40,935 bases of DNA from Maricaulis sp. (GTDB lineage Bacteria; Pseudomonadota; Alphaproteobacteria; Caulobacterales; Maricaulaceae): assembly GCF_030149235.1 (NCBI RefSeq), contig NZ_JASBRW010000047.1, forward strand, positions 1 through 40,935, read 5' to 3'. Under the pieces are notes generated by a model, which was not told the DNA's origin, searched no databases, and was given only the letters and a program-made list of their open reading frames with translations. Position 1 is the stretch's first letter; every line of letters starts with the position of its first letter. Shown one piece after another: positions 10,695 to 23,169 of this stretch. A program made the translations under genes and the position numbers.

Positions 10695-12083
10695 CTAGCG
10701 GGGATCGAGATCGGCCAGTATCGCCGCGATTGCTGCCGCATGCCCCGCCACGGGCGAGTCTTCCGGGAAGGGGTGGATCGCTATATCAGGTTCAAGTCCG
10801 CGCGCTTCATGGGCGGTTCCGGATGTGTCCTCGAACCTCTCATTGGACAATTCCAGATACCAGCCATTGGGCAAGGGCTTGGCGAGCGGGGTGGAAAAGG
10901 CGCCGCGCGTCGTCGCGCCAACCTGGGTGACGTGCTCAAGCTGGCGCAGCATCATTGTCGTGATCTCGCCGCAGGACACGGTGACATCGCTCGTGAGCAC
11001 GTAAACCGGGCCGGTAAAGCGCGGACCTTCGGCGGGCTCAATCGTGTAGCGGGCGACCGGTTCCGGTTCATTGCCGACGCTGACGGCATATCCAAGAAAC
11101 GGTGCGTCCGTGAAGCGCGAGGCGATGGACCGGCAAACCGCATCATAGCCGCCGCGATTATTGGATAGGTCGAGAATGACGGCGTCCATTCCCTCGAACT
11201 GTGTGAGGGCCTCGTCCATGATGGTGTCGAGAGCCGCGAGCTCGGCAGCGGCCCATTGTGGCGTGCCAGCTTCAAACTCGGTTACGAACCCGCCCATGGT
11301 GAAAAATTGCAGATAGCCAACCCGGTCATCGATCGTTCCGGTTATGATGCGGTCATTGGCGATATGCTGTGCGTCCTCGTCGAGGACATCCGTGACTGTT
11401 TGCTGGATCAGGCCGATAAGCCACGGCGTTTCCCCAAGTGTGGCGTCAATGCGGGGCAGGGTGTCGCCAAGGCCGAACTGGGCCCGTCGGCGCTCGCCGT
11501 CAATTTGGGCAATCAGCTTGGTGTGGCTGTCGCCCAGGGGGGCGATCATGCCGGCCAGCAGATCAAATAGCTCGGCCTCGCTCATGTCGCCTCTGAGCTG
11601 GCGGCGTGCCGTGCCGACCTGGGCCGGCCAGTCGACACCGCGGGCGTCAAAGAAGGCGTAATGCCGTTCGAACACCGATACGAAGACGTCGAAGACGGCC
11701 TGCGGCGAGGTGTCGAGGTTCGCAGTACAGTGCGCTGGCAGCGCGTCGAGGCGCTCGAAGCGGGCATGACCATCGCCGGGTAGGTACTGGAAGCGCGCCG
11801 TGTCGGCGCTGATGGCCGTGAAATAGCGGTACTCGATCTGCCCCATCAGGGTCGGGCCGTCAGTCGGGCTGGGATAGCAGGCGGCCGGCGTGTCCTGCCA
11901 GCGGGTAATCCCGTCCTCGTCGATCTCGAGGATCCAGCCGCTTTCGTGTGATCGCCACACGCCCTGCGCCGCGGCCAGAACGCTGTCCTCGCCGAGAATG
12001 TCTTGGCGAACCGGTTCAGCCGCACACGCACTGGCGCTGGTAACCAGCGTGAGGAGGGCAGGGATCAGAAAACGGCGACGCAT
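10695..12083 (-). CDS. Secreted S41-family peptidase
   Basis: 462 aa from the chosen start (MRRRFLIPAL), which has GGAG 8 bases upstream. An ATG 30 bp further up is rejected because it lies inside a palindromic operator. An N-terminal signal peptide ends near SASACAAE; the cysteine there is not in a standard lipobox. The C-terminal half shows the S41 (tail-specific/C-terminal processing protease) fold: VILDLSNNRGGYDAV at about 302-316 and the nucleophile region TSDVTVSCGE at about 364-373, with Ser370 the likely catalytic residue. No PDZ domain is evident, which points to the Tricorn/IRBP-like rather than the CtpA-like subgroup. The TetR gene immediately upstream probably controls it. Confidence 0.8.
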   Translation of the reverse strand: MRRRFLIPALLTLVTSASACAAEPVRQDILGEDSVLAAAQGVWRSHESGWILEIDEDGITRWQDTPAACYPSPTDGPTLMGQIEYRYFTAISADTARFQYLPGDGHARFERLDALPAHCTANLDTSPQAVFDVFVSVFERHYAFFDARGVDWPAQVGTARRQLRGDMSEAELFDLLAGMIAPLGDSHTKLIAQIDGERRRAQFGLGDTLPRIDATLGETPWLIGLIQQTVTDVLDEDAQHIANDRIITGTIDDRVGYLQFFTMGGFVTEFEAGTPQWAAAELAALDTIMDEALTQFEGMDAVILDLSNNRGGYDAVCRSIASRFTDAPFLGYAVSVGNEPEPVARYTIEPAEGPRFTGPVYVLTSDVTVSCGEITTMMLRQLEHVTQVGATTRGAFSTPLAKPLPNGWYLELSNERFEDTSGTAHEARGLEPDIAIHPFPEDSPVAGHAAAIAAILADLDPR

Positions 12084-12100
12084 GGGTGAAGCTCCAAAAA

Positions 12101-12112
12101 TGACCGCGGTCA
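12101..12112. promoter_or_regulatory. Palindromic operator, probable TetR site
   Basis: TGACCGCGGTCA is a perfect 12-bp palindrome in the 45-bp gap between the tetR stop and the S41 peptidase start. The form TGACC...GGTCA is common for TetR-family operators. It overlaps where the peptidase promoter or leader would be, so repression by the adjacent TetR protein is the simplest reading. Confidence 0.6.
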
Positions 12113-12128
12113 CCTTTATGGTCTCGCG

Positions 12129-12710
12129 TCAGGAATGGCAAGCGCCAATCGTGCCGAGCAGGGTTTGCAGCCGCTGCCGCATACGATCTGGGGCATCGTC
12201 CAGCTGGTCGGTAACCATCGCCTCCCGCCAGGTGCCGGTGGCCAGGGCCAGGATGAGGTCGGCGAGGTGTCTGGGGTCGGGGGCTTGTGCTGGCAGGTTG
12301 GCGCTGCGCAGCAAAGCCTCAATCCGGTCGGCGACTTGGCGATCGGTGTCCTGTTCGACAACGCGCAGGCTTTGCGACCGCGGCGCCTCGATATTCTTGG
12401 CGCGCCACATCTCGGGATATTGCCGGGTCAGACGCCCGATGCCCATGGTCAGTTCGAGCAGGCTGTCGATCAGCTCGCCCTGAGGTAACTGCGCTGCGAG
12501 ATAGTCGGCGATCAAGGCGTCATACCAGGCCGCGAGGATATCGGCCTTTGTTGGAAAGTGGTTGAAGAATGTGCCCTTGGCGATGCCAGCGGCGCGGGTG
12601 ATATCGGTGACGCTGACCGTGTCATAGCCATCGCGTTCAATCAGGCGCAGGGCGGCGTCATAAATCGCCTGCCGGACCGCCTGTTTCTTTTCTTCGCGCC
12701 GTCCGGCCAA
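12129..12710 (-). CDS. TetR/AcrR family transcriptional regulator
   Basis: 193 aa. The TetR_N helix-turn-helix spans about residues 10-56 (ALRLIERDGYDTVSVTDITR, then AAGIAKGTFFNHFPTKADIL), with the typical F-NHF recognition helix. The remainder is an all-helical ligand-binding domain with no identifiable ligand. The gene sits 46 bp upstream of the secreted S41 peptidase on the same strand, with a perfect palindrome between them, and 14 bp downstream of the Lrp-type gene. It probably represses the peptidase. Confidence 0.9.
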   Translation of the reverse strand: MAGRREEKKQAVRQAIYDAALRLIERDGYDTVSVTDITRAAGIAKGTFFNHFPTKADILAAWYDALIADYLAAQLPQGELIDSLLELTMGIGRLTRQYPEMWRAKNIEAPRSQSLRVVEQDTDRQVADRIEALLRSANLPAQAPDPRHLADLILALATGTWREAMVTDQLDDAPDRMRQRLQTLLGTIGACHS

Positions 12711-12723
12711 GCCGTTTCTCCCG

Positions 12724-13203
12724 CTAGCCCTCGATATGACCCAGGGGCAGGCCGGTGCTGTCCTTGACGTTACGAATCTGCACGGAGGTGCGGAAATCGC
12801 CGACCACGTCCAGCGGGATGAGCTTGTCGGAGACGAAGTCGTTATAGGCGTCGATATCCGGCATCACGACCTTGAGTAGATAGTCGGACGGGCCGGTCAT
12901 GGTGACGGCCTCGGTGACCTCCGGGAAGCTCTGGATCGCGGCTTCGAATTTCTCGAAATTGGCCTTGCGCGCCGGTGAGATTTTCACCTCGATATAGGCG
13001 GTGAACATCAGGCCAAGCGTGCGGCGATCGAGCTGAACCGTGCGGCGACGGACAATGCCCTCGGTCTCCAGCCGGCGGATGCGGCGCCAGCAGGGCGAGG
13101 GAGTGAGGCCGACAATCTCGGCAATATCGGCTACGGAGCGGCCTGCATCTTCCTGCAGCGCTTCAAGAATGCGGACGTCTACGGAATCAAGGTCGGCGAT
13201 CAT
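12724..13203 (-). CDS. Lrp/AsnC family transcriptional regulator
   Basis: 159 aa from MIADLDSVD. An in-frame ATG 39 bp upstream adds an Arg/Lys-rich stretch (MHKFRRKRGFRAK) outside the family's usual start. The AsnC-type winged helix is at about residues 4-62 (LDSVDVRILEALQEDAGRSV ... GLTPSPCWRRIRRLETEGIV), followed by the RAM effector domain with VTMTGPSDYLLKV. These proteins sense amino acids and form octamers that wrap DNA. BkdR of Pseudomonas is an Lrp homologue that activates the branched-chain keto acid dehydrogenase operon, and such an operon lies 0.7 kb away here. A duplicated element occurs upstream of this gene and upstream of that operon, which suggests auto- and cross-regulation. 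Confidence 0.93.
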   Translation of the reverse strand: MIADLDSVDVRILEALQEDAGRSVADIAEIVGLTPSPCWRRIRRLETEGIVRRRTVQLDRRTLGLMFTAYIEVKISPARKANFEKFEAAIQSFPEVTEAVTMTGPSDYLLKVVMPDIDAYNDFVSDKLIPLDVVGDFRTSVQIRNVKDSTGLPLGHIEG

Positions 13204-13260
13204 TTTTGCCCGAAACCCCCGTTTTCGGCGAAATTTGTGCAACGCGGAGCGTTATCGATG

Positions 13261-13282
13261 GCGCATATGGCACATTGATCCA
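13261..13282. repeat. Core of duplicated regulatory element, copy 1 (lrp side)
   Basis: A 22-bp sequence containing ATGGCACATTGATCCA recurs at 13769-13790 with a single mismatch. It lies 58 bp upstream of the lrp-type ATG. Flanking blocks also match at the same offset of 508 bp: TTTTTGC at 13203-13209, GCGAAATT at 13228-13235 and CAAGGC at 13291-13296. The two regions are therefore related over about 100 bp, not only at the core. Confidence 0.8.
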
Positions 13283-13316
13283 AGGTCAGGCAAGGCTCGT
13301 GTTGGGAGGAGTAGCT

Positions 13317-13607
13317 CTAGCCGCCACCACAGTCGCCGCCGCCGCCCCCAAAATCTCCGCCGCCATCGATGAAGCCGCCGCCTCCGCTGCCATCGCCTTT
13401 GCCCGAGCCGGGATTGCCGCCGATGAAGGCGCCGAACAGGCCGAAGCTCGCCGCAATGACCAGGACGAAAGGCTGAGCGGCCAGGCTCATCAGGATCGGC
13501 AGTGGGTTGCGGTCGGCCACGAAGTAGATGAACAGGCCGAAGAAAACCGGAATGACAAGCACCCCGATGGCACCGCCGATCAGCGCGCCGACTGGCTTTT
13601 TGATCAT
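13317..13607 (-). CDS. Small membrane protein with Gly-rich tail
   Basis: 96 aa, family not recognised. Two hydrophobic segments are visible, at about residues 6-30 (ALIGGAIGVLVIPVFFGLFI) and 38-64. The last 30 residues are almost only Gly, Asp and Ser (GGGGFIDGGGDFGGGGGDCG), like the tails of some TPM-domain and other surface proteins, and include a single Cys near the end. It lies between two copies of the duplicated regulatory element and is transcribed toward the lrp-type gene. A GGGGA motif precedes the ATG at a long spacing. It is probably real, with unknown function. Confidence 0.55.
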   Translation of the reverse strand: MIKKPVGALIGGAIGVLVIPVFFGLFIYFVADRNPLPILMSLAAQPFVLVIAASFGLFGAFIGGNPGSGKGDGSGGGGFIDGGGDFGGGGGDCGGG

Positions 13608-13760
13608 GATTTCGATCCCCGGATTTCGAGGCGATAACTAACCCCGCTTCGTTCTGTGAGCGCAACCATTTGGGTTGTGCGGTCTGGAATGGCCCCTGGG
13701 TGGCGACGAATTTTTGCGGCAAACATCCTTTGGTCGCGAAATTCATCCGGATTGCTGCAG

Positions 13761-13776
13761 ATTTGCACGCGCAAAT
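13761..13776. promoter_or_regulatory. Inverted repeat overlapping element copy 2
   Basis: ATTTGC and GCAAAT are perfect inverted 6-mers separated by ACGC. They overlap the left end of the 22-bp core at 13769-13790. AT-flanked dyads of this size are typical half-sites for Lrp/AsnC proteins. The other copy does not preserve this dyad. Confidence 0.4.
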
Positions 13777-13790
13777 GGCACATTGATCCA
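13769..13790. repeat. Core of duplicated regulatory element, copy 2 (bkd side)
   Basis: This is the second copy of the 22-bp core, one mismatch from 13261-13282 and in the same orientation. It lies 103 bp upstream of the E1alpha ATG and 160 bp upstream of the small Gly-rich membrane gene on the other strand. The flanking matches in the same register are TTTTTGC at 13711-13717, GCGAAATT at 13736-13743 and CAAGGC at 13799-13804. Confidence 0.8.
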
Positions 13791-13893
13791 GCGCTGGACA
13801 AGGCCCTGCCATCCGCGTTAGACGCCCCTCGCGCAACCGGCATTCCCCGGGGCGCATATCCAGGCAGTTCCGCCGCAGTCATTGCGAGAGCCC

Positions 13894-15123
13894 ATGACGC
13901 AGACCGATCCCCGCTTCCACGTTCCCGCGCCGCATGTGCGGCCCGGCGATACGCCCGACTTCTCCCATATCAAGGTTCCACCGGCCGGCGAAGCCAAGCG
14001 CCCCGAGCCCGATGTCGAGGCTCACGAGACGCGCGATCTGGCGACCTCTCTGGTGCGTGTCCTTGACCACAACCACCAGGCCGTGGGCGAGTGGGATCCG
14101 AAGCTGGACGCGGACGTGCTGCGCGAAGGTCTCAAGCACATGGTGCTGACGCGGGTCTATGACGACCGCATGCTCAAGCTGCAGCGCCAGGGCAAGATGA
14201 GCTTCTACATGAAGTCGACGGGCGAGGAGGCTGTTGCCGTCGCCGCCGCGATGGCGCTGGACAAGGGCGACATGGTCTTCCCCTCCTACCGCCAGCAGGG
14301 CATCCTGTTTGCCCGCGGTCGCGACATTGTCGACATGATGTGCCACTGCATCTCCAACAGCCGCGATAATCTCAAGGGCCGCCAGCTGCCGGTGCACTAC
14401 ACCTGGGCCGAGGGCAATTTCTTCTCCATCTCGGGCAATCTGACAACGCAATTCCCGCAGGCGGTCGGCTATGCCATGGCCTGCCAATACAAGGGTGAGA
14501 GCCAGATCGCGGCGAGCTGGATTGGAGAAGGTTCCACCGCCGAGGGCGATTTCCATGGGGCACTGGTCCTGGCCTCGACCTACAAGGCGCCGGTCATTCT
14601 CAATGTCGTCAATAACCAGTGGGCGATCTCGACCTTCCAGGGTATTGCCGGCGGTCAGGCGGAGACGTTTGCGCTCAAGGGCCAGGGCTACGGCCTCGCC
14701 ACGCTGCGCATCGACGGCAATGACTTCCTCGCGGTTTACGCGGCAACGCAATGGGCGGCCGAGCGCGCCCGTGCGGGCCTCGGTGCAACCGTGATCGAAA
14801 GCTATACCTATCGCGCCGACGCGCACTCTACCTCGGATGACCCGTCCGGCTATCGCCCGAAAGGCGAGGAAGCCAAATGGCCGCTGGGTGACCCGATCGA
14901 GCGCCTGAAGCAGCACCTGATTGGTCAGGGCGAGTGGGATGAGGAGCGTCACGCCGCCCTCGAGAAGGAACTCGATGAGCTCGTGATCAAATCCTACAAG
15001 GAAGCGGAAAGCTTCGGCACCCTGCATGACGGGCCCTTGTCGCCGGTCGAAAGCATTTTCGAAGATGTCTATGCCGAACCGGACTGGCGCCTGCGCCGCC
15101 AGCGTCAGGATCTGGGAGTTTAA
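13894..15123 (+). CDS. bkdA1: 2-oxoisovalerate dehydrogenase E1 component, alpha subunit
   Basis: 409 aa. With E1beta it forms the thiamine diphosphate-dependent E1 that decarboxylates the 2-oxoacids of Val, Leu and Ile. The ThDP-binding motif is clear: GEGSTAEGDFHGALVLAS ending in NNQWAIST. The phosphorylation-loop-like region YRADAHSTSDDPSGYRP is typical of the branched-chain rather than the pyruvate enzyme. The length also fits bacterial BCKDH E1alpha. The ATG at 13894 was preferred to a TTG four codons upstream. It is the first gene of a three-gene operon; E1beta starts two bases after its stop. Confidence 0.93.
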   Translation: MTQTDPRFHVPAPHVRPGDTPDFSHIKVPPAGEAKRPEPDVEAHETRDLATSLVRVLDHNHQAVGEWDPKLDADVLREGLKHMVLTRVYDDRMLKLQRQGKMSFYMKSTGEEAVAVAAAMALDKGDMVFPSYRQQGILFARGRDIVDMMCHCISNSRDNLKGRQLPVHYTWAEGNFFSISGNLTTQFPQAVGYAMACQYKGESQIAASWIGEGSTAEGDFHGALVLASTYKAPVILNVVNNQWAISTFQGIAGGQAETFALKGQGYGLATLRIDGNDFLAVYAATQWAAERARAGLGATVIESYTYRADAHSTSDDPSGYRPKGEEAKWPLGDPIERLKQHLIGQGEWDEERHAALEKELDELVIKSYKEAESFGTLHDGPLSPVESIFEDVYAEPDWRLRRQRQDLGV

Positions 15124-15125
15124 TC

Positions 15126-16139
15126 GTGGCCAAGATGAACATGATCCAGAGCCTCAATTCGGCGCTCGACAATGCCATGGAGAAGGACCCGAACGTCATC
15201 TCCTTCGGTGAGGATGCGGGTTATTTCGGCGGCGTTTTCCGTGTCACCGCCGGCCTGCAGGAAAAATACGGTCTCGACCGTTCCTTCGATGCACCGATCA
15301 ATGAGGCGGCCATTACCGCCATGGCGATCGGCATGGCAGCCAAGGGATTGAAGCCCGTCGCCGAGATCCAGTTCGCCGACTATATCTTCCCGGCGATCGA
15401 CCAGATCGTCTCCGAACTGTCGCGTATCCGTTATCGCACCGCCGGCCAGTTCACCACGCCGGTCGTGGTGCGCACGCCTTGCGGCGGCGGTATCCGCGGT
15501 GGTCAGACCCACTCGATGAGCCCGGAAGCCTTCTTCACCCAGGTGCCCGGCATCCAGGTGATCATGCCATCCAACCCGTATGACGCCAAAGGCCTCTTGA
15601 TCGCCGCGATCGAGAGCCCGGACCCGGTCGTCTTCTTCGAGCCCAAGCGCCTCTATAACGGCCCGTTCGACGGTGACCCCACCAAGGCGCTGGAAACCTG
15701 GGCCAAGCATGAGAAGGGCGAGGTTCCGGAAGGTCACTACTCCCTGCCGATCGGTAAGGCGGAAGTGGTCCGCGAGGGCAATGACGTCACCATCATCGCC
15801 TATGGCACGCTGGTGCATGTCGCCCTGGCAGCGGTCGAGCGCGAAGGCATCGATGCCGAGATCATCGACCTGAAGACGCTGGTGCCCTATGACATCGAGA
15901 CCATCGCCGCCTCGGTCAACAAGACCGGCCGCTGCATCGTCTCCCAGGAAGCGCCGCGCACCTCGGGCTTTGCTGCCGAGCTGGCTGCGCAGATCCAGGA
16001 AGAGTGTTTCTATGCTCTCGAGGCGCCGATCGCGCGCGTCACCGGCTGGGACACGCCCTACCCGCATGCACATGAATGGGCCTATTTCCCGGGCCCGCAG
16101 CGTTTCATCAACGCCATCCGCGAAGTTCTGGAGGCCTGA
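15126..16139 (+). CDS. bkdA2: 2-oxoisovalerate dehydrogenase E1 component, beta subunit
   Basis: 337 aa, starting with GTG directly after the E1alpha stop, so translation is probably coupled. The transketolase pyrimidine-binding half carries the conserved SFGEDAGYFGGVF and the Glu of INEAAI at about residues 54-59, which activates the thiamine ring. The C-terminal transketolase domain includes VSQEAPRTSGFAAELAAQI at about 269-287. Close matches to E1beta subunits leave little doubt about the class. The protein completes the alpha2-beta2 E1. Confidence 0.95.
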   Translation: MAKMNMIQSLNSALDNAMEKDPNVISFGEDAGYFGGVFRVTAGLQEKYGLDRSFDAPINEAAITAMAIGMAAKGLKPVAEIQFADYIFPAIDQIVSELSRIRYRTAGQFTTPVVVRTPCGGGIRGGQTHSMSPEAFFTQVPGIQVIMPSNPYDAKGLLIAAIESPDPVVFFEPKRLYNGPFDGDPTKALETWAKHEKGEVPEGHYSLPIGKAEVVREGNDVTIIAYGTLVHVALAAVEREGIDAEIIDLKTLVPYDIETIAASVNKTGRCIVSQEAPRTSGFAAELAAQIQEECFYALEAPIARVTGWDTPYPHAHEWAYFPGPQRFINAIREVLEA

Positions 16140-16141
16140 TC

Positions 16142-17425
16142 ATGAGCGAATATCGCTACAAGATGCCCGATGTCGGCGAAGGTATCGTCGAGGCGGAGAT
16201 TGTCGAATGGCACGTCAAGGAAGGCGATACGGTCAGCGAGGACCAGCACGTTCTTGATGTGATGACCGACAAGGCGACGGTGGAAATTCCCTGCGCCGTG
16301 AACGGTGTCGTCACCAAGCTGGTCGGCGAGCCAGGCGAGGTGATCGCGGTCGGTACCCAGATCATGTTCATTGCCGTGGACGGCGAAGTTCCGGCCGAAG
16401 AAGAAGCCGCACCGGCACAAGCGCCGGCCGAGGAGGCGCCGAAGGCAGACGCTGTTCCGGCACCCGCGCCGAAGGCAGAGCCTGCTCCGGCACCGGCTCC
16501 GGTCGCTCCCACAGCACCGGCTGTTGCCGCGCGCCCGGAGGGCAGCCGCGCCCTGGCCAGCCCGGCCGTGCGCAAGCGGGCCCTGGAAGCCGATATCGAT
16601 CTGTCCTCCGTGCCGGGAACCGGCCCGGCCGGCCGTGTCACCCATGCCGACCTGGATGATTTTATCGCCGCCGGTGGCCGCCTGGTCGCCAAGGCCGGCG
16701 GGTCGGGTTCCGGCCGTGCCCCGCGCACCGGTGTGACGGAAGAGAAAATCATCGGCCTGCGTCGCCGCATCTCCGAGAACATGTCGCACGCCCAGCGCAC
16801 CATCCCCGACATCGCCTATGTCGAGGAGATCGACGTCACGGCGCTGGAAGAGCTGCGCAAGCATCTCAATGCGACCAAGTCGGATGATCAGGCCAAGCTG
16901 ACCTTCATTCCCTTCCTGGTCATGGCGCTGACCAAGGCGCTGCCGGAAACGCCGCAGGCGAACAGCCATTTTGACGGCGAGAACATGGTGCTGACCAAGT
17001 TCGACGCGATCCATGCCGGTGTCGCTGCGGCGACGCCGAACGGTCTTATGGTGCCGGTCATCAAGCATGCCGAAGCGCTCGACATCTGGCAGATCGCCGG
17101 TGAGCTGAAGCGTCTCGGCGCCGCCGCCAAGGCCGGCAAATGCACCAAGGATGAGCTTTCCGGTTCGACCATCACCATCACCTCGCTCGGCGCGATCGGT
17201 GGTCTGGTCACCACGCCGATCCTGAATGCACCGGAAGTGTCGATCATCGGCGTCAACAAGATGCAGACCCTGCCACGCTTCGATGACAATGGTCAGGTGG
17301 TCGCGCGCAAGGTGATGAACCTGTCGAGCTGTTTCGATCACCGCATCGTCGACGGCTATGATGCCGCCATGCTGATCCAGCGGGTCAAAGGCTATCTGGA
17401 AAACCCGGCGACGCTGTTCATGTGA
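16142..17425 (+). CDS. bkdB: Branched-chain 2-oxoacid dehydrogenase E2 (dihydrolipoyl acyltransferase)
   Basis: 427 aa. E2 transfers the acyl group from E1 to CoA through a swinging lipoyl arm and forms the core of the complex. The domains in order are: one lipoyl domain (1-80) with Lys44 in VMTDKATVEIP; an Ala/Pro/Glu linker (about 82-128); an E1/E3-binding domain (about 131-170, ALASPAVRKRALEADIDLSS then GTGPAGRV); and the catalytic domain, ending with His400 and Asp404 in FDHRIVDGYDAA. The start is the ATG two bases after the E1beta stop; an upstream in-frame ATG lies inside E1beta. A strong terminator follows at 17471-17503, so the E3 gene is not in this transcript. Confidence 0.94.
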   Translation: MSEYRYKMPDVGEGIVEAEIVEWHVKEGDTVSEDQHVLDVMTDKATVEIPCAVNGVVTKLVGEPGEVIAVGTQIMFIAVDGEVPAEEEAAPAQAPAEEAPKADAVPAPAPKAEPAPAPAPVAPTAPAVAARPEGSRALASPAVRKRALEADIDLSSVPGTGPAGRVTHADLDDFIAAGGRLVAKAGGSGSGRAPRTGVTEEKIIGLRRRISENMSHAQRTIPDIAYVEEIDVTALEELRKHLNATKSDDQAKLTFIPFLVMALTKALPETPQANSHFDGENMVLTKFDAIHAGVAAATPNGLMVPVIKHAEALDIWQIAGELKRLGAAAKAGKCTKDELSGSTITITSLGAIGGLVTTPILNAPEVSIIGVNKMQTLPRFDDNGQVVARKVMNLSSCFDHRIVDGYDAAMLIQRVKGYLENPATLFM

Positions 17426-17992: not shown

Positions 17993-18023
17993 TCCTTCCC
18001 ACACCCTCCCGCTTGCCCTATAT

Positions 18024-18048
18024 CTTATGTCACCAATGGTGACATAAG
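18024..18048. promoter_or_regulatory. Perfect 11+3+11 operator upstream of thioesterase-tetR pair
   Basis: CTTATGTCACC, the spacer AAT and GGTGACATAAG form a perfect inverted repeat. It ends 11 bases before the thioesterase ATG and its right end merges with the ribosome binding site AGAGG. TATATC just upstream could be the -10 element. The TetR gene two positions down the operon is the obvious candidate to bind it, giving autoregulation. Confidence 0.8.
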
Positions 18049-18059
18049 AGGCTGAGCCG

Positions 18060-21289: not shown

Positions 21290-21772
21290 ATGAGCGATCA
21301 CCCGCTAGCCAGCCGGATGAGCACGGAGCGCCAGTTCGAGGGGGAGGGCGTTGGCTGTATCTCCTTCGAGACGGCCTTTCTGCGGTCTCGTACGGTGGCA
21401 CCGGAGGAGATCGACGAGCTCGGCCACGTCAATAATGTCGTCTATCTGCGCTGGGTGCAGGATGTCGCGATTACTCATTGGCATACCGTTTCACCGCCTG
21501 AGCAGATCGCGAGCGATGTCTGGGTAGCGCTGAAGCATACGATCGAATACCGCGACCCGATCCTGCCCGGCGAAACCGCCGAGATCCGCACCTGGCTTGG
21601 TCGGGTGCATGGCCCGCGCTTTGATCGTCATGTCGATATCCGCAAGCCGGGCGCCAAACGCTTCTCTGCCCGGGCGGTGACGGAATGGTGCCGAATCGAC
21701 ACCGCAACGCGCCGGCCCAAACGGGTGGCGGGCGATGTGCTGGACACGTTCGGGGTTGCCGGCTTGCTTTAA
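21290..21772 (+). CDS. 4-hydroxybenzoyl-CoA/YbgC-like acyl-CoA thioesterase
   Basis: 160 aa hotdog protein. The YbgC/FadM-type signature DELGHVNNVVYLRWVQD at about residues 43-59 holds the catalytic Asp and the conserved His-Val-Asn-Asn. It starts 12 bases after the E3 stop, behind a purine-rich GAGGGGAG that abuts the ATG; an internal ATG nine codons on (MSTER) is an alternative. Co-transcription with E3 suggests a housekeeping role in releasing CoA from acyl-CoA near the branched-chain pathway. Its stop overlaps that of the convergent dehydrogenase by four bases. Confidence 0.85.
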   Translation: MSDHPLASRMSTERQFEGEGVGCISFETAFLRSRTVAPEEIDELGHVNNVVYLRWVQDVAITHWHTVSPPEQIASDVWVALKHTIEYRDPILPGETAEIRTWLGRVHGPRFDRHVDIRKPGAKRFSARAVTEWCRIDTATRRPKRVAGDVLDTFGVAGLL

Positions 21773-22836
21773 AGGCGCGCGTCAATGCCGGCCGCCTGCG
21801 CGGCCTCATTCAACTGATCGATCGTCATTTCGTCCAGCGGTACACCGTCGCGTTCGCGCTTGCCGCGCCAGGCGCGTTCGGCGTCGCCCGGGACGAGGAC
21901 CGGGCTGTCCCAGTCCATCAGCGGGGATTGGGTGGCATAATCGCTCACCGCGTCGATTTCCTCGGCCATCCAGGCCGGGTCACCGAAGGCGGCCGGGTCA
22001 ATCAGGATGGAGAAGAGTGAGTTGAGAATGCCGCCGCGGCGCGCCTTGGCCGGCTGGATCGTGCCCGAGCGCGACAGGACGCCGGCCAGCAGCTCACAGG
22101 CGAAGGCGAGACCATAGCCCTTGTGCCTGGCCATCGGGGTGAGGGCGCCCTTGACCTCGAAACCGGTCATGCCGCTGGGATCGGTGGTTTCCATCCCGTG
22201 CTCGTTGAGCAGGGCGCCCTTGGGGACGGTCAGCCCCTTATTGGCGGCGACACGGACCTTGCCGAGGGCGATGCGGCTGGTGGCCATGTCGAGCAGGAAT
22301 GCACCGCGCTCGTTGGACGCGGGAAAGCCGATACAGACCGGGTTGGTCCCGAAGCGGGCATCAGAGCCGCGGAAGGGCGCAACGAGCGGGGTGTGATCGG
22401 TGACGTTGACGAAGTGCATCGACACCAGCCCCTGCACGCTCAGGCGTTCCGCATAGGCACCGACGCGGCCCAGATGGTGGGCATCGGCGAGGGTGGCGCA
22501 GCTCAGCCCGTGGGCACGGGCTTTTGGCGCGGCACGGGCAAACAGCGCGTCCGCGCTGGGGGCGCCCCAGGAAGAATGGGCATGCATCTGGGTGAGCACG
22601 GTGGTGTCGGTGATCGCCTCCGGTTCGCCATCCAGCTTTACCAGACCGGATTGGGCGTGACGGATATAGGCGGGTAGCAGGCCGACCCCGTGACTGTCAT
22701 GACCGCTCAGATTGGCCTCGACCAGGTGTTCGGCCACCCGTGCGGCATCCGTGTCCTTCGCTCCGGTTGAGCGAACCAGGCCTTGGGCGAAGGCGGTCAG
22801 GTCCGGGGCGGCAAAGCGGCGTTCATTGGCAATCAT
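21769..22836 (-). CDS. LDH2 family malate/L-lactate/ureidoglycolate-type dehydrogenase
   Basis: 355 aa, typical for the Ldh_2 family of NAD(P)-dependent oxidoreductases with a fold distinct from classical malate and lactate dehydrogenases. The conserved N-terminal SGHDSHGVGLLPAYI (about 44-58) contains the active-site His, and the central RFGTNPVCIGFP and LDMATS stretches bind cofactor. The 2-hydroxyacid substrate cannot be told from sequence. It is a single gene, convergent with the thioesterase. The AT-rich 22837-23169 region lies upstream of it. Confidence 0.88.
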   Translation of the reverse strand: MIANERRFAAPDLTAFAQGLVRSTGAKDTDAARVAEHLVEANLSGHDSHGVGLLPAYIRHAQSGLVKLDGEPEAITDTTVLTQMHAHSSWGAPSADALFARAAPKARAHGLSCATLADAHHLGRVGAYAERLSVQGLVSMHFVNVTDHTPLVAPFRGSDARFGTNPVCIGFPASNERGAFLLDMATSRIALGKVRVAANKGLTVPKGALLNEHGMETTDPSGMTGFEVKGALTPMARHKGYGLAFACELLAGVLSRSGTIQPAKARRGGILNSLFSILIDPAAFGDPAWMAEEIDAVSDYATQSPLMDWDSPVLVPGDAERAWRGKRERDGVPLDEMTIDQLNEAAQAAGIDARL

Positions 22837-23169
22837 CGAAGATCAATCTGCGTGGCGGGGACCATGAAAGAGGGGTCGATAAAAACAATTCCCTTTGTTT
22901 AGTCGAATATTAACTACACTTGAAAGCCAAACCCGTTCCGAATTGGCACAGAGTCGATTTGAGTAAAATTTTACAGAGTTAAATTTTTGAAATAATTTGT
23001 GAAATTAAACGCAGCCTGAGCTGAAATTTTCGATTCGATTTAAAAGTTTAGCAATCGGTCTTTGCCATTCTTCATCACGTCGAGGCGGCAACAGCCTCGC
23101 AGAGATAACCTTGGCGTCAGAAGAGGGAAATCCCCACGGCGCGACTTTGAGATGGATGAGGGAATGTCG
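22837..23169. other. AT-rich divergent intergenic region
   Basis: No gene is convincing in these 333 bases. About 22875-23060 is much richer in A/T than the rest of the window (runs such as TAAAATTTTAC and TTAAATTTTTGAAATAATTT). It must hold the promoters of the LDH2 gene (minus) and the TonB-C gene (plus). A half-good CtrA-like box (TTAACTACACTTGAA, 22910-22924) has one mismatch in the second half. No clear terminator or riboswitch was recognised. Confidence 0.5.

Follow-up and report, generated by a model that had tools for sequence, protein, structure and literature searches.

In Pseudomonas, the regulator gene bkdR and the bkd operon are separated by one unduplicated intergenic stretch. 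The BkdR protein of P. aeruginosa activates the divergently transcribed bkd operon, and branched-chain amino acids probably stimulate it (PMC8707732). In Caulobacter crescentus, the Lrp-like regulator PutR is encoded divergently to putA and is a strong activator when proline is present (PMC6168545). The targets of Lrp-family proteins contain several imperfect semi-palindromic sites, which show helical periodicity and lie two or three turns apart (PMC2995911).

The locus described here lies in a stretch of 40,935 nt from Maricaulis sp. (contig NZ_JASBRW010000047.1), which is called the window. As in the Pseudomonas case, a gene of the Lrp/AsnC family is divergent to a bkd operon, and as in the case of PutR and putA, the Lrp-like regulator of an alphaproteobacterium faces a catabolic target. 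In contrast to Pseudomonas, the region between the two is present twice, with a gene interposed, and the regulator is a candidate for binding there. In contrast to putA, the substrate is a different one, and a duplicated control region is not mentioned in the available parts of the PutR report. The duplicated and partitioned control region is thus a variant of the known BkdR-bkd arrangement. Nothing relevant on duplicated divergent promoters in bacteria was found in the literature searched.

The regulator and the bkd operon

The lrp gene (12724-13203, minus strand) encodes a protein of 159 amino acids, which is a candidate BkdR-like regulator of the adjacent operon. Its N-terminal AsnC-type HTH (HTH_AsnC-type, 1e-17) and its C-terminal domain (Pfam AsnC_trans_reg, 5.3e-20) both exceeded the curated cut-offs, as is characteristic of the Lrp/AsnC family. 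The nearest solved structure was 3i4p (1.4e-29), and the leucine-responsive regulatory protein 2gqq gave 8.5e-26. The window belongs to the genome G000 (2.76 Mb, 90% complete), and further G-numbers denote relatives; in one of these, G008, the Lrp protein is identical (dN 0, dS 0.66).

The operon on the other side (13894-17425, plus strand) comprises the genes for E1-alpha (13894-15123), E1-beta (15126-16139), and E2 (16145-17425), as assigned with Pfam. Its annotation as a branched-chain dehydrogenase in a first-pass annotation of this DNA was supported. E1-alpha, which carries Pfam OxoDH_E1alpha_N, is closest to the solved 2-oxoisovalerate dehydrogenases 2bp7 and 1qs0 (9e-154 for 2bp7, presumably the P. 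putida enzyme), in contrast to 1.2e-48 for the best chain named pyruvate dehydrogenase. The NCBIfam pyruvate dehydrogenase models remained below their cut-offs for this operon. The locus thus has two attributes of a BkdR-type system, a regulator gene divergent to bkd and a target that is a branched-chain and not a pyruvate dehydrogenase. Divergent lrp-bkd pairs were also found at 27 of 70 lrp loci of other genera, in a chosen set with short flanks.

On its other side, lrp is adjoined by a tetR gene (12129-12710, minus strand). This gene and an S41 peptidase gene (together 10695-12710) lie between a thiolase gene and lrp in G000, G008, and G004, and both are absent from the searched stretches of G002, G005, G009, G003, G017, and G011.

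The two copies in the window

The repeat consists of R1 on the lrp side (13202-13298) and R2 on the bkd side (13710-13806), both read on the plus strand. The first-pass annotation had given these positions and an exact offset of 508 bp, which are correct; the ungapped identity is 61/97. A core of 22 bp (13261-13282 in R1, 13769-13790 in R2) is identical at 21/22 positions, and the left flanks are identical at 31/59. A left-flank similarity of this size was reached by 0.014% of 200,000 random 59-bp pairs drawn from the window, and shuffling of one side yielded a p of about 3e-5. In a window-wide list, the core pair was the only direct pair of 22-mers with at most one mismatch, and the six remaining rows were different registers of a single palindrome near 18,026. 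This near-perfect palindrome (18023-18049, arms around TTATGTCACCAATGGTGACATAA) lies just upstream of a DUF4442 gene and tetR2 and could be a TetR-type operator.

The left blocks of R1, TTTTTGC, AAAC, and GCGAAATT, are located at 13202-13236. Because 13202 falls within the lrp start codon (CAT, 13201-13203), the first of them overlaps the lrp leader. The left blocks of R2 (13711-13743) are conserved in G008. The earlier account of the locus was right about the repeat and omitted an open reading frame on the minus strand between the copies (13317-13607), which is described below.

A single control region in most Maricaulis genomes

The lrp and bkd genes are divergent neighbors in all 19 Maricaulis genomes. 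In 15 of them, they are separated by a single intergenic region with 180-193 bp between the start codons, and in the other four the region is duplicated, with distances of 690 bp (window), 689 bp (G008), 673 bp (G004), and 411 bp (G002). A further Maricaulaceae locus outside the genus set (L055) was left out of these counts; it has lrp beside bkd, but lacks the core and the -10 at the corresponding places.

In all four duplicated regions, both the left and the right end align with the 15 single regions. The lrp start codon marks the beginning of R1, and the length from 13710 to the bkd start corresponds to one whole single region. Both copies are thus homologous to one ancestral intergenic region, and the repeat represents a direct duplication of that control region. 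The first-pass annotation had explained the repeat by a composite site used at two promoters. That the repeat lies in regulatory regions and connects the Lrp-type gene with bkd was supported, but the picture of two sites acquired by two promoters has to be replaced by that of one shared region that was duplicated and is still single in 15 of 19 genomes. The repeat thus represents a divergent control region that was duplicated and then partitioned, and not a pair of convergent sites.

Several elements have fixed positions relative to the lrp start. In 15/15 single regions, T[AG]GACAAG at +83 is followed, after a spacer of 16, by G[CT]TAGA at +105, and therefore the length differences among the single regions must reside downstream of the -10. 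In the window, the equivalents are TGGACA (13795-13800, -35-like) and GTTAGAC (13817-13823, -10-like), separated by 16 bp, on the plus strand. These hexamers resemble the Caulobacter RpoD consensus TTGaCgS / GCtANAWC (PMC8144410), and it is inferred that they form the bkd promoter (13795-13823). The R2 core ends 4 bp before this putative -35. WWGGCA is found at +63 in 13 of the 15 single regions (G013 and G007 read TGGCG) and in R1 of all four duplicated genomes; in R2 of all four, the -35 follows it at a distance of 20 bp.

In the window, each copy has lost what is needed by the other direction only. R1 retains the lrp start codon and leader and reads CAGGCA/GAGTAGC at the positions equivalent to the bkd -35/-10. 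R2 retains the putative bkd promoter and has AAT where the lrp start codon would lie (13709-13711). Both copies kept the left blocks and the core. An lrp promoter was not recognized by eye in R1. In G004 and G002, the left half of R2 is much diverged, and the homology of R1 stops at ATGGCA, so that only half of the core is kept and its right half is gone; in G000 and G008, it extends to about 14 bp past the core.

Conservation between species

Comparison with G008 showed that both copies are conserved and the adjoining non-coding DNA is not, in accordance with the selective conservation of blocks that had been proposed. For R1, 85/95 positions were identical (13204-13298), compared with 7/18 just beyond. 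For R2, the values were 40/43 for the left block (13706-13748), 7/20 for the spacer (13749-13768, ungapped), 38/38 for the stretch with the core (13769-13806), and 85/88 for the remainder up to bkd. R2 therefore consists of two conserved elements at a fixed distance, and the sequence between them is free. The coding stretches compared had identities of 354/400 for lrp and 272/311 for bkd. These results indicate that both copies have been kept across species.

Occurrence of the core and the blocks in other genomes

The possibility that the core is an ordinary scattered repeat was contradicted, as it matched just the R1 and R2 places in its genome at up to 3 mismatches. The pattern read backwards had no match in the same genome at this threshold. 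Among 61 genomes (G000 and 60 relatives), any match at up to 3 mismatches was found in six. A mismatch-free core occurred in G000 and G008 only, twice in each. Four relatives outside the genus had one match with 3 mismatches each, and none of these was at the contig position of the relative's best lrp match.

The block pair TTTTTGC-N3-AAAC-N11-GCGAAATT was found at 0-1 mismatch solely in both copies of G000 and G008 among the 19 Maricaulis genomes. At 2-3 mismatches, 26 further places were found, 4 at lrp and 22 elsewhere, whereas the reversed control gave 5 places. Among the 22, five seem to represent a single orthologous stretch. In a BLAST search with the whole of R1 against the 19 genomes, the pieces outside G000/G008 had at most 31 bases, chance-level matches aside, and the best one was R2 of G004 (E 0.011). 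The 25 lrp-bkd regions searched outside Maricaulis yielded no counterpart of the core. Core-like words in these regions were limited to TGGCAC (twice) and AAATGGC (once) in unrelated places, and three longer words never occurred.

Candidate operator motifs

A symmetric motif was derived from lrp-bkd regions of other genera. Of 27 regions, two redundant ones and L069, which is from another order, were dropped, and the first 18 bases of each of the 24 remaining regions were omitted as ribosome-binding site. The resulting 15-mer had a score of 263, compared with 198-205 for shuffled sets. Its matches at 13222, 13202, and 13711 had ranks 3, 4, and 12 in the window, corresponding to candidate dyads at 13222-13236 and 13202-13216 in R1 and at 13711-13725 (TTTTTGCGGCAAACA) in R2. 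Ranks 1, 2, 5, and 6 were in an AT-rich stretch near 22,980. With a 17-mer version, 13711 had rank 7, but R1 only rank 35. Nine of the 15 single regions were tested with the 15-mer; the top match was at +18 from the lrp start in six and at +19 in one, in sequences that are related to one another.

In a control with dinucleotide shuffles, the p values were 0.056 (15-mer) and 0.39 (17-mer) for R1, and 0.20 and 0.11, respectively, for R2. For eight single regions, three values of 0.004-0.013 and five of 0.049-0.62 were obtained with the 15-mer. After control for composition, the presence of the other-genus dyad on the flanking blocks is thus only suggestive. In R1, the starts of the candidate dyads are separated by 20 bp in one register, which is close to two turns, and by 18 bp in another.

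In the window, the motif lands on the flanking blocks and misses the core, which, in contrast to the clustered Lrp-family sites, does not resemble the dyad. In addition, R1 of G004 and G002 lacks the right half of the core. The proposal that the 22-bp core itself is the Lrp site was thus not supported. A weak 17-mer match on the R2 core was the best one in G002 (score 3.6). The nearest candidate for binding the repeat is the adjacent BkdR-like Lrp protein, by analogy with BkdR and its divergent bkd operon (PMC8707732); such binding is likely, with moderate support from the sequence.

Two further training sets were used. A previous set of 14 other-genus regions resulted in a different motif, which failed to highlight the repeat. 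Its 15-mer had a match at 13704 at rank 11 in the window and its best match at +23 from the lrp start in most Maricaulis single regions; no repeat position was among the listed top 14 for its 13-mer. A motif from a training set that included five Maricaulis regions, TTTTG..CAAAA, occupied ranks 1-3 at 13712, 13204, and 13222 (13-mer). It was discarded as independent evidence, because in four of these five rows it was the lrp ribosome-binding site that entered the motif.

The AT-rich stretch at 22822-23008, where several top matches of the other-genus motif fall, could be another target of the regulator, or the matches could be due to mere composition. The gene beside it (21769-22836, minus strand) looks by eye like a malate/lactate-type dehydrogenase.

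History of the duplication

In a five-gene tree of 9 genomes, G000, G008, G004, G002, and G005 were on one side of a branch with a support of 100/100. G004, G002, and G005 grouped together at 99/99 (88/93 with first and second codon positions). A tree of E1-alpha only (18 rows) did not resolve the clade. All five genomes have DUF4442-tetR2 downstream of bkd; this gene pair is absent from about 4 kb beyond E2 in the 16-kb stretches of the four other genomes examined.

G005 is the exception in this clade, as it has a single region though its sister G002 has two. The right 117 bp of the G005 region match R2 of G002 at 115/117 positions, and the left 64 bp match R1 at 49/64 and R2 at 27/64. The corresponding identities are 429/477 for the lrp of G005 and 1187/1227 for its E1-alpha. 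It is likely from these values that G005 lost one copy by recombination or had its lrp side replaced; it is also possible that its lineage was never duplicated. The simplest history would be one ancestral duplication, followed in G005 by loss or replacement.

Explanations for the repeat

We propose that the control region of lrp and bkd was duplicated in direct orientation in the ancestor of the clade of G000, G008, G004, G002, and G005, and that a small gene, itself of restricted distribution, ended up between the two. Each copy would then have kept what its own neighbor needs and lost the parts for the other direction, a case of duplication, degeneration, and complementation. Blocks that were wanted both ways, i.e., the AT-rich left blocks and the core with ATGGCA, would have stayed at fixed spacing. 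The adjacent Lrp/BkdR-like protein may use these shared blocks as an operator array; it would activate bkd from just upstream of the -35 with branched-chain amino acids and regulate its own gene from R1. The homology of the copies, the synteny, the pattern of losses seen in the window, and the selective conservation are observed. For the whole explanation, including the operator array, we estimate a probability of about 0.7. At this locus, a shared divergent promoter has been dissected by nature, with one copy freed from each direction in four genomes that can be viewed beside 15 genomes with a single region, and short candidate sequences are available for an Lrp-type operator of the Maricaulis bkd operon.

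The strongest competing explanation, which we regard as quite conceivable though we would not bet on it, is that the Lrp-type protein occupies the AT-rich left blocks only and that the core is the site of another transcription factor or an upstream element of the bkd promoter. In the window, the cross-genus symmetric motif indeed falls on the left blocks and misses the core. The core is located directly next to the putative bkd -35, and the 25 regions from other genera contain nothing core-like apart from the three short-word matches. However, the core was retained in R1 of G000 and G008, where the bkd promoter is lost. Moreover, the spacing between left blocks and core is fixed throughout the genus, as would be expected of a single multi-site complex, and the best, albeit weak, 17-mer match in G002 is on the R2 core.

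It appears improbable that the similarity of R1 and R2 in G000 and G008 is maintained chiefly through gene conversion or through a second duplication of recent date, and not by selection on both copies, with R1 being passive. TTTTTGC and a GCGCA before ATGG are present in R1 and R2 of these two genomes only and are missing in G004, G002, and the 15 single regions, so that gene conversion, or a second duplication at a later time, is possible. But the flanks differ strongly within one genome (31/59), and yet each copy is conserved between species beside DNA with 35-43% identity, for which conversion within a genome alone does not account.

The conserved blocks with diverged segments between them could also have arisen if two independent sites had evolved convergently at two promoters of one regulon. 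This reading, which the first-pass annotation implied, is very unlikely, since both copies can be aligned almost gap-free, over the stretch between the lrp start and the -10, to a region that is single in 15 of 19 Maricaulis genomes, and since the copy on the bkd side includes a relic of the lrp leader. Although the records of G008, G004, G002, and G005 are metagenome-assembled, an assembly artifact or an ordinary scattered repeat can be dismissed, because four separate assemblies carry the duplication with differing sequences and the core is unique to the two copies in the genome.

The small gene between the copies

A small gene on the minus strand (13317-13607) encodes a hydrophobic protein of 96 amino acids with a Gly-rich tail. 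It belongs to no known family, without a match in Pfam or NCBIfam. A gene lies between the copies in three of the four duplicated genomes (G000, G008, and G004). Among 36 relatives, homologues were found in G008 and G004 only, both at this locus, and a search of 289 genomes of the class yielded the window and two weak matches (E about 0.005). The identity to G008 is 204/291 in the coding sequence and 43/99 in the leader. The values of dS 1.08 and dN 0.24 (dN/dS about 0.2) suggest a protein-coding gene under selection, which is apparently purifying.

The locus illustrates how a divergent regulator and its target can take up a gene between them with their regulatory link left uncut. A tentative extension, which we consider less probable than not being the case, is that a lineage-specific gene split a divergent promoter, which survived this because of its duplicated control region, whose copies then divided the labor. 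The small, membrane-like protein, reading from R2 toward lrp, would have been drawn into the branched-chain amino acid regulon, and the complementary decay would mark, letter by letter, those parts of an Lrp-type operator that serve both directions. Upstream of all three copies of the small gene, TTG and [CG]TTAG were recognized by eye at a distance of 16-17 bp, and the gene may have a promoter of its own.
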